A DNA stretch of 64,000 nucleotides from Halovivax limisalsi (lineage in GTDB: Archaea; Halobacteriota; Halobacteria; Halobacteriales; Natrialbaceae). Positions 54,713 to 56,907 of the stretch are shown here, in pieces. The position numbers and the translations under genes are program-made. The notes below the pieces were generated by a model. That model did not search any database and was not told where the DNA came from. It worked only from the letters and a program-made list of their open reading frames with translations. Positions within the stretch are counted from its first letter, which is position 1. Each line of letters starts with the position of its first letter. The stretch spans positions 3,038,001 to 3,102,000 of the forward strand of contig NZ_CP095757.1 of NCBI RefSeq assembly GCF_023093535.1, in the 5' to 3' direction.

Positions 54713-54834
54713 CGACACCCGGTTTCACCAGGGCGGAATTAATCCTGACGGTTCGGCTGGTCTCGGATCGGAAAAGCCCTCCAAAGAAAAACCGGCTACG
54801 ACTACTCGAACCGACAGTAGACGGAAACGATGTC

Positions 54835-54854
54835 TATTGGTTCCCTCACCAATA
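54835..54854 (+). promoter_or_regulatory. Palindromic operator candidate of the toxin-antitoxin locus
   Basis: TATTGGT-TCCCTC-ACCAATA is a perfect 7-bp inverted repeat with a 6-bp spacer. Its right arm runs into the AT-rich AATAAGCTTATC, a good TATA element about 30 bp before ATG 54891. A HVO_A0114-type DNA-binding protein encoded downstream could bind here for autoregulation. Confidence 0.6.
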
Positions 54855-54890
54855 AGCTTATCGCGTTGGTCCGTGTACCGATAATCGTGG

Positions 54891-55228
54891 ATGGCCCCAT
54901 TCACGGAAGACGACCTCGACGGAGTAAGCGAGGGGAGGAAGTACCCCGACGGAACCGTCATCCGGGTGTTCTGCATGCGGACGACCCGTGACGCGTACCC
55001 GTCCGGATGGGCCTCAAGCTTCACTACGGCACGACGGATCCAGACCCACCCCGCACGCTCGACGATGGGACGATTCGGCGGTACGATAACTCGCACGAGG
55101 ATACCAAAGGACACGAACTTCACGTCGCTCCGGACCCCGATCCGGTCGTAATCGAGTTCCCCGGGATGATCGAACTGTGGGAACGGTTCTGGAGGGAAAT
55201 TCCGAAATCCGAGTTGAAAGTTAACTGA
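54891..55228 (+). pseudogene. TumE-like (DUF6516) toxin gene with a -1 frameshift
   Basis: The first 39 codons from ATG 54891 give MAPFTEDDLDGVSEG...DAYPSG. The family then expects YxLHYGT. That continuation (MGLKLHYGTTD, RRYDNSHEDTKGHE, IEFPGMIELWERFW) is found in another frame starting at 55007. One base appears to be missing at about 55004-55007 (YPSG/GLKLHYGT aligns without gaps if one base is restored). The toxin of this TA pair would therefore be inactive, unless programmed frameshifting or a sequencing error is involved. The antitoxin-like gene follows 25 bp later and is intact. Confidence 0.7.
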
Positions 55229-55252
55229 GACCATCACACCACGGTGATACCA

Positions 55253-55702
55253 ATGAACGACACCACGCCGCCGCTGCACCCGATGGAGCGCGAACAGCTT
55301 CGGGCCGAGTCAACGCTCGTCGTTACCGTGAAGGCGTCCCGTGAATTCCACGACGACGTCGTCGACGGGATCGAGGCGCTCGAACGCGGGAACTCGGTGA
55401 ATTCTCCGCCCACGCTCTCGTTCGCGAGTTACGACGACCTCATGGAGACGCTGACACCGCGCGCCCTCGACCTCATCGAAGCTATCCGTCGGGAAGGGCC
55501 AGCCAGCATCAACGAGACCGCACGTGTGGTCGACCGAGACGTGAAGAACGTCCACGAGGAACTCAGTCGGCTCGCTCGATTGGGAATCATCTTTTTCGAG
55601 GAGGAGGGACAGCGAATGCGCCCGGTCGTCTGGTTCGACGAACTCGTCATCACTCTCCCATTCGATCCGGAGGCTGGCGACACGGCGACTGCGGCACCGT
55701 GA
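55253..55702 (+). CDS. HVO_A0114-type putative DNA-binding antitoxin (TumA-like)
   Basis: 149 aa. A MarR/winged-helix fold: SYDDLMETLTPRALDLIEAIRREGPASINETARVV, recognition helix DVKNVHEELSRLARLGIIFF, wing RPVVWFDELVITLPF. This family pairs with TumE-type toxins in haloarchaea. The ATG is preceded by GGTGAT (complementary to the 16S rRNA 3' end), spaced 4 bases. With the toxin frame broken, this gene may survive as an orphan regulator of the palindromic operator at 54835-54854. Confidence 0.82.
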   Translation: MNDTTPPLHPMEREQLRAESTLVVTVKASREFHDDVVDGIEALERGNSVNSPPTLSFASYDDLMETLTPRALDLIEAIRREGPASINETARVVDRDVKNVHEELSRLARLGIIFFEEEGQRMRPVVWFDELVITLPFDPEAGDTATAAP

Positions 55703-55882
55703 CTCACCCGGACGCTGACCTCGATGCCGAAGACGAAGCGGCCGTCCCCGCAAACTGTTCGAGGTATGTAAAATGTATCCAATCTCAACCGAACGCTTCG
55801 ACCGTTGGCGGGCGAACGGCAGAACGTATCGAGATTTTATCCAGTGAACGTTTCCCGATACAAAATTAATCTTATTTCCAAC

Positions 55883-55896
55883 AGATATAATATACT
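55883..55896 (+). promoter_or_regulatory. TATA box of the candidate RNA
   Basis: AGATATAATATACT is close to an ideal archaeal TATA box. Its centre (about 55888) is 26-28 bp before the first base of the long stem at 55916, the expected distance to a transcription start. Confidence 0.65.
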
Positions 55897-55910
55897 GCGA
55901 TGTGTACGCC

Positions 55911-56005
55911 CGACCGGAAGCTCACGTCTCCACACGAGCCGCAGGGGGCATGCGCCCAGAGAAATGCCCCGGGTGTTAGGGCCACCCGAGACGTGGCTTC
56001 CAAAC
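55911..56005 (+). ncRNA. Candidate structured non-coding RNA, three-way junction with possible kissing loops
   Basis: A closing stem pairs 55916-55930 with 55988-56001: GGAAGC/GCTTCC (6 bp), one bulged T at 55922, then CACGTCTC/GAGACGTG (8 bp). Inside, hairpin A is GGGGCAT/ATGCCCC (55945-55951 with 55964-55970, 12-base loop) and hairpin B is GGGTG/CACCC (55971-55975 with 55983-55987, 7-base loop). B is directly flanked by A and the closing stem, so they may stack coaxially. Loop A contains GCCC (55954-55957) and loop B GGGC (55979-55982), which can pair. A 14-base single strand (55931-55944) completes the junction. Orientation is inferred from the TATA box. It matches no RNA family I know. 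Confidence 0.55.
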
Positions 56006-56175
56006 CGGATCACCGATTTGGTCACCATGATTGCGAACACACTACCGAGACAAAAAGGTCTCGCACGCTCGCGGTATCGAGAGATGAATCGCCGTCCCGC
56101 TTCTGGTTTCGATCGTTCGGAGTGGGGACGCTGTCGTCACGAGTGGACGACGCGACTGGTTCGGAGGAATTTCCG

Positions 56176-56397
56176 ATGAAATCTCTCGGTGCGGTGCGGG
56201 GTGACCAGTCGGCCGACTCGACGGCCGAGCGCGAGTGCTACCGGTGCGATCGCGACCTGGCGACCGACCAGCTGTTTCGCGTGACGGCCCGGCCGCCCGC
56301 CGCGTCGGAGCGATTCGCGGCGGCCACGCGATTTTGCTGCGCCGACTGCGTGGCTGGCATTGGGGATGCTGGAGTTCGCAGATCGGGTAGTGACTGA
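56176..56397 (+). CDS. Small zinc-binding protein
   Basis: 73 aa, with paired Cys motifs CYRC and CCADC in an acidic/basic mixed small domain (ERECYRCDRDLATDQLFRVTA; RFCCADCVAGI). One zinc-ribbon is likely. The ATG is 175 bp after the structured element and follows GGAGGAATTTCCG, where GGAGG is a strong ribosome-binding site. Function unknown. The structured element might be in its 5' leader instead of an independent RNA. Confidence 0.72.
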   Translation: MKSLGAVRGDQSADSTAERECYRCDRDLATDQLFRVTARPPAASERFAAATRFCCADCVAGIGDAGVRRSGSD

Positions 56398-56501
56398 AAG
56401 TCGTCGTTGATAGGTGGATTCGTTTTGAGAGTAGCTGAATACGTCCTGACGTGGCGGACTCGGTGCAGCGATCGACGAGGTTGCAAAACGATCGGATCGA
56501 G

Positions 56502-56513
56502 CCTTATAAGTAT
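56502..56513 (+). promoter_or_regulatory. TATA box of the S8e gene
   Basis: CCTTATAAGTAT, centred about 28 bp before ATG 56536, so the transcript is probably leaderless. Confidence 0.7.
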
Positions 56514-56535
56514 CGTCCGCCGGTTTCGTTCGGGT

Positions 56536-56907
56536 ATGCAAGACCAGGTCCGCTCGACTCGCAAGCGAACCGGAGGCCGACTCAAGCACGCGCGCAACCA
56601 CCGCAAGGACGAACTCGGGCGCGAACCGACCGAGACGCAGGTGGGCGAGCCGCGCTACAAGACCGTCGACGTCCGCGGCGACAACGTCAAGACCCGCGCG
56701 CTCGCGACCGACGTCGCCCACGTCAACACCGGCGGCGAGACGGTCACTGCCGAGATCGAGAACGTCGTCGAGAACGAGGCCAACCCCAACTACGTCCGCC
56801 GGAACATCATCACGAAGGGCGCGGTCATCGAGACCGGCGAGGGCACCGCCCGCGTCACCTCGCGACCCGGCCAGACCGGCCAGGTCAACGCCGTCCTGCT
56901 CGACTGA
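56536..56907 (+). CDS. rps8e: 30S ribosomal protein S8e
   Basis: 123 aa, normal length. The start MQDQVRSTRKRTGGRLKHARN is the eS8 signature. Later TRALATDVAHVNT, NPNYVRRNIITKGAVIET and VTSRPGQTGQVNAVLLD are family motifs. It is a small-subunit protein that binds 16S rRNA. A TATA box 28 bp upstream implies leaderless transcription. Confidence 0.95.
   Translation: MQDQVRSTRKRTGGRLKHARNHRKDELGREPTETQVGEPRYKTVDVRGDNVKTRALATDVAHVNTGGETVTAEIENVVENEANPNYVRRNIITKGAVIETGEGTARVTSRPGQTGQVNAVLLD

Follow-up and report, generated by a model that had tools for sequence, protein, structure and literature searches.

A candidate class of structured 5′ leader RNA in dispersed zinc-microprotein cassettes of Halovivax limisalsi and related haloarchaea

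In a stretch of 64,000 nucleotides from Halovivax limisalsi, hereafter the window, a TATA box is followed by a stem that encloses two hairpins, and a small zinc-protein gene lies downstream. The question raised by this locus is what kind of RNA it encodes. The original prediction named an independent small RNA or a leader-located regulatory RNA, and it implied that homologues should be present in relatives, that stem positions should compensate in these homologues, and that the element should not be a transposon end. Conserved structure, promoter spacing, start-codon placement, coupling geometry, the selection pattern and dispersal were computed from the copies of the element, and the reading that we regard as fairly probable is a 5′ leader RNA of a new class, which would act in cis to control the initiation of a short leader ORF (ORF1) and, by coupling, the zinc gene (ORF2).

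Table 1. Features of the leader RNA cassette and the adjoining genes, in window coordinates.
Feature	Position	Strand	Details	Basis
TumE-like toxin	55007-55228		N-terminal portion seems to lie in a different frame	
HVO_A0114-family HTH gene	55244-55702			
Promoter	55879-55891	+	variant of family motif CAGTAGnTATAAT (window copy: CAACAGATATAAT); TATA box 55886-55891	
Three-way-junction domain, leader RNA	55916-56001	+		folding, copy comparison
P1	55916-55930 with 55988-56001	+	5′ strand with 3′ strand; U55922 bulged	
Hairpin P2	55945-55970	+	55945-55951 with 55964-55970	folding, covariation
Hairpin P3	55971-55987	+	GGGUG 55971-55975 with CACCC 55983-55987	
Hairpin P4	56002-56019	+	56002-56008 with 56013-56019; end 7 nt 5′ of ORF1 start codon	
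ORF1, 50-aa leader ORF	56027-56179	+	MIANTLPRQKGLARSRYR...; stop overlaps ORF2 start (ATGA)	
Hairpin P5, inside ORF1	56046-56063	+	56046-56051 with 56058-56063; loop AAAAAG; codons 7-13	
ORF2, type-A zinc microprotein	56176-56397	+	CxRC...CxxC	

As shown in Table 1, folding reproduces the predicted closing stem of 14 bp with one bulge and the two hairpins enclosed by it, and it agrees with the earlier drawing in that P2 is joined to P3, and P3 to the 3′ strand of P1, without linkers. The minimum free energy of 55916-56001 is −46.3 kcal/mol, compared with −34.5 ± 3.3 kcal/mol for dinucleotide shuffles (z −3.5), and none of the 200 shuffles is equally stable. Hairpins P4 and P5 were absent from the earlier description, as was ORF1, which separates the RNA from the zinc gene. 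The GCCC/GGGC complement, from which kissing loops had been proposed, is present at the window copy but is not conserved across copies; any 4-nt complement between the P2 and P3 loops occurs in 4 of 100 copies, with 3.5 expected from shuffling, and this contact was rejected. Similarly, the 14-nt single strand at 55931-55944, which had been proposed as a binding site, varies in length and is missing in many copies, so it does not represent a conserved binding site. An H-type pseudoknot of at least 3 bp involving the P2 loop is formable in 63 of 83 copies, with 56 expected and a shuffle maximum of 67. A switch between the 3′ strand of P1 (CGAGACGU) and the 3′ strand of P5 (ACGUCUCG) was also rejected; in many copies P5 becomes GUCCCG and P1 stays GAGACG.

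Compensation at stem positions was found in the homologues. Two-sided changes with pairing kept occur in 14 of the 24 modelled pairs, distant homologues included, of which 2 are in P1 and 2 in P3. Standard pairs fill 95.6% of pair cells in 100 copies, compared with 88.1% after shuffling and 22–55% when the strands are slid, and the covariation score in these copies is 0.193 versus 0.079. The number of compensated cells is 93, compared with 23 in shuffles, and 0 of 500 shuffles reach it, a significance that is overstated owing to the relatedness of the sequences and to the adjustment of the alignments to the model structure. Within the 100 copies, the largest share of the covariation comes from P4, where 7 of 7 pairs show compensatory changes; in P2, pair 38-59 of alignment A3 is G-C in 72 copies and A-U in 22. 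P1 and P3 are nearly constant within Natrialbaceae, where P3 is invariant, so the covariation in this family derives from P4, P2 and P5, and that of P1 and P3 derives from few distant homologues; P3 is compensated in other families and in the viral contig L283. Loci L095-L174 were retrieved by the exact P3/P1 pattern, which inflates the invariance in that subset, and the near-invariance of P1 and P3 is also seen in BLAST- and model-derived copies. P1 contains 30 G-U wobbles and 0 A-C mismatches, which indicates that the selected molecule is the RNA of the + strand; P4 has no G-U/A-C asymmetry and shows a recurrent C-A mismatch. When RNAalifold was applied to a MAFFT alignment of all 41 copies from the genus, the placement of gaps hid P2 and P4, and the covariance models R1 and R2 were used instead.

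In the Halovivax genome that contains the window, 25 places were found by BLAST and 29 by model R1, with the best 30 candidates scored per genome, and BLAST with the region found 21–30 places in each of four congeners. Homologues are also present among relatives, as the prediction had called for, with at least one copy found by R1 in 76 of 125 Natrialbaceae species. Outside Natrialbaceae, only 4 genomes gave a match in a draw of 392 Halobacteria, no further genome with the element was added by a draw of 295 genomes from the phylum, and model R2 was positive in 5 of 146 genomes of another haloarchaeal family. Two viral contigs, L247 and L283, carry the leader; the exact pattern gave no match on viral contigs, loosened patterns gave 2 true copies among 35 candidates tested, and no copy was found in the phage collection. 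The P5 loop AUAAACGU of the viral L283 (1951-2051) is identical to that of Natrialbaceae copies, hinting that the cassettes may be of viral origin. The remark that the sequence matches no familiar riboswitch or small RNA holds, as no Rfam 15 family reaches the gathering score in the whole window (chance match with E 3.4 in the region). No description of the leader class was found in the open PMC literature. Structured leaders in general have been described before; this leader class, the coupling ORF and the cassette spread appear to be new.

The predicted TATA box proved real: TATAAT lies 30 bp before G55916, and this spacing is kept in nearly all relatives. An ungapped logo anchored on the first P1 base in 100 copies gives a common motif (CAGTAG-n-TATAAT) with TATA at −30, which is observed in about 97 of the 100, and upstream of the motif the information is near background. 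The 3.89-Mb genome contains 11 instances of the pattern CAGTARNTATAWNA, of which 10 precede RNA copies and 1 precedes a truncated copy; a control pattern has no instance in it. The TATA-to-start spacing of archaea is well established, and a TATA box at −30 from P1 thus predicts a transcription start at P1 or at most 2 bases off; from the promoter spacing we infer a start at the first base of P1. At L230 (1250-1365, minus strand), a truncated copy consists of the family promoter and the 5′ half of the RNA, followed by unrelated sequence.

In nearly every copy, a short ORF1 begins 7 nt 3′ of P4 and is usually followed by ORF2 overlapping as ATGA. Hairpin P5 was tested on a gapless codon alignment of the N-terminal ORF1 codons, which is independent of the structure models; nucleotides 22 and 35 form A-U in 64 and G-C in 37 and are paired in 109 of 117 distinct sequences, with a shuffle maximum of 90. 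P5-like hairpins with other sequences occupy the same place in L241, L242/L247, L244 and L283. The lysine codon of ORF1 is AAA in essentially all copies and the arginine codon is AGA in many (56027-56068), a usage that is unusual for a GC-rich haloarchaeon and that we attribute to the P5 hairpin. Beyond codon 14, neither third-position bias nor protein-level selection was found in ORF1, with changes per codon position from codon 15 of 146/192/177 (pairs of 85–99.9% identity). The length of ORF1 ranges from 23 to 208 codons, and for about 140 of the 150 typed cases its stop is found −14 to +2 nt from where ORF2 starts. Since the peptide is unselected and yet the stop nearly always lies at the ORF2 start, the simplest reading is translational coupling, in which ORF1 would be a translated coupling ORF whose peptide matters little and whose translation does matter. 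A subfamily in Halopiger and Natrinema (L071, L089, L112, L145, L161, L165, L189, L196) has a long ORF1, MIAYPLPRHKRLARxSVRS..., and a zinc ORF2 was not detected in it.

ORF2 itself is under purifying selection, with changes per codon position of 91/84/260 (pairs of 85–99.9% identity). Three kinds are distinguished, namely type A (71 distinct), type B (67) and HalOD1-like (5); A and B are four-cysteine zinc microproteins, and in at least one case a type-B gene stands next to the HalOD1-like ORF2. The type-A profile gives 24 strong matches in the genome of the window, 23 of which lie directly behind an RNA copy, the 24th (2964760) being outside the comparison. No Pfam or NCBIfam family fits the zinc types A or B, and low-confidence AlphaFold models of both have no significant PDB match, and weak similarities to ribosomal zinc ribbons were set aside. 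Outside Natrialbaceae the cargo differs, being PadR-like in L244 and in the viral L283 (judged by eye from the sequence), and consisting of zinc-ribbon and uncharacterised proteins elsewhere. Some copies are decaying; L035, L041, L043 and L048 have frameshifts, in-frame stops or start-codon loss. The ORF2 of the window has an extra T near 56360-56361 relative to its sister copy L028, which puts the C-terminus out of frame with loss of the conserved GMLEF, and it is possibly an early pseudogene.

The structured 5′ UTR with compensatory changes and the leader-ORF stop that overlaps the next start codon or lies directly beside it support the following mechanism. The dedicated promoter would start the mRNA at the first P1 base with the compact P1/P2/P3 junction, and P4 and, within the coding region, P5 would lie on either side of the ORF1 start codon. 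Folding of the leader, on which a shared trans-factor (a protein or a small molecule) most likely acts, would set the efficiency of ORF1 initiation, and ribosomes completing ORF1 would re-initiate on ORF2 at the overlapping ATGA. The leader would thus probably set the amount of zinc proteins made, and the cassette of promoter, leader, ORF1 and ORF2 would have spread to many sites. Translational control and a trans-factor or ligand acting at the near-invariant junction are inferred from sequence comparison. The occurrence of the same leader before zinc types A and B, HalOD1-like and PadR-like genes argues for a shared signal and against autoregulation by any single product.

A constitutive leader, that is, a cap-like structured 5′ element serving to protect the mRNA and to load ribosomes free of a Shine-Dalgarno sequence, with no sensing, is unlikely in our estimation but is the strongest of the competing explanations. 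It would account for an mRNA 5′ end buried in a stem, for one leader preceding unrelated cargo, and for the absence, in the copies inspected, of a Shine-Dalgarno-like GGAGG upstream of the AUG of ORF1, given that this sequence is not strictly required in haloarchaeal translation (PMC8241225). However, the junction core (P3, CACCCGAGACGUGGCUUCC) remains near-invariant while P4 and the cargo of paralogues diverge, which suggests specific recognition. We prefer regulated control to a constitutive loading or stability element because the core is conserved beyond the needs of stability; this is a judgement, and the data do not separate the two.

Of the two forms that the original prediction left open, the leader stood, with compensated homologues, fixed spacing between TATA box and stem, and a start codon downstream; the lone small RNA did not. 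A trans-acting small RNA cut from the transcript's 5′ portion would fit a 5′ domain that is compact, stable and multicopy, but it is very improbable because the conserved structure extends beyond the AUG of ORF1 as far as codon 13, and the loops able to pair with targets are variable.

The cassette of about 0.5 kb is dispersed, and pairwise homology between copies begins near the promoter and stops near the ORF2 stop. In four other Halovivax genomes, the site next to rps8e lacks a segment of about 1.7 kb (about 54757-56492) that comprises the RNA cassette and the TumE/HVO_A0114 pair, and flanks are common with the G004 copies in only 2 of the 24 copies of the window's own genome. Flank searches for further empty sites found that the flanks are not conserved within the genus. 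These features could also be read as those of a MITE-like DNA element whose hairpins serve mobility, and its homology limits would then be the promoter and ORF2. We give this explanation slightly less weight than the small RNA: the element is dispersed, yet, in agreement with the expectation that it is not a transposon end, no terminal, inverted or flanking direct repeats of at least 12 bp were found in 55750-56560, a limit below which very short target duplications would fall. In addition, P1 changes to G-U and never to A-C, the hairpins are internal and at a fixed distance from the TATA box and the AUG, and ORF2 is under protein selection. Least probable of all is an RNA partner of a type III-like toxin-antitoxin or defence-like module with ORF2 as the toxin, for although the order promoter-RNA-small gene, the multiple copies in varied genomic neighbourhoods and the TumE/HVO_A0114 pair adjoining the window copy resemble such modules, there are no tandem repeats around the RNA, ORF1 and ORF2 have no PADLOC or Pfam match, and a single RNA type is combined with more than one ORF2 family, these families being unrelated to one another.

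Bacteria rely heavily on structured leader RNAs for regulation, but in archaea such leaders are, to our knowledge, almost unknown. If the regulated leader is real, haloarchaeal riboregulation would become directly testable, with up to about 30 copies per genome, an own promoter motif, compensatory changes and a coupling ORF; many anonymous zinc microproteins would be grouped into one candidate regulon, and chromosomal cassettes would be linked with haloviruses. We advance more tentatively, as a conjecture with less than an even chance, that this is the first large natural haloarchaeal riboregulator regulon, in which a new ligand- or protein-sensing RNA class, common to (pro)viruses and chromosomal cassettes, would switch translation in as many as about 30 zinc-microprotein operons of a genome by way of a coupling ORF with a free peptide.

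The candidate resembles translational riboswitches and structured leaders, such as the purine three-way junction and preQ1, in its 5′ location, its junction, the hairpin close to the start codon and the presence of one RNA type before many genes. Unlike them, it has no match in Rfam by sequence or structure and no conserved loop-loop contact, and behind it stands a leader ORF that carries a hairpin of its own. A 2021 paper (PMC8241225) names only one experimentally supported natural riboswitch from archaea, the fluoride riboswitch of Thermococcus kodakarensis. Operons with uORFs or leader peptides are similar in that a short ORF1 of free peptide sequence overlaps ORF2 by ATGA, whereas the ORF1 described here has a conserved hairpin at codons 7–13, a structured RNA upstream and cassette dispersal. 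The haloarchaeal C(P)xCG zinc-finger micro-proteins (Haloferax, PMC11241148, PMC6562870; Brz, PMC2253796) are like ORF2, which is mostly below 100 aa with two CxxC-like pairs; however, types A and B fit no Pfam or NCBIfam family, and a link of such proteins to a structured leader was not found in the open PMC literature. It has been reported that stem-loops in 5′-UTRs are needed for translational regulation in haloarchaea (PMC2636863), but those UTRs belong to individual genes, whereas in the present case dozens of predicted transcripts begin with members of one homologous RNA class.
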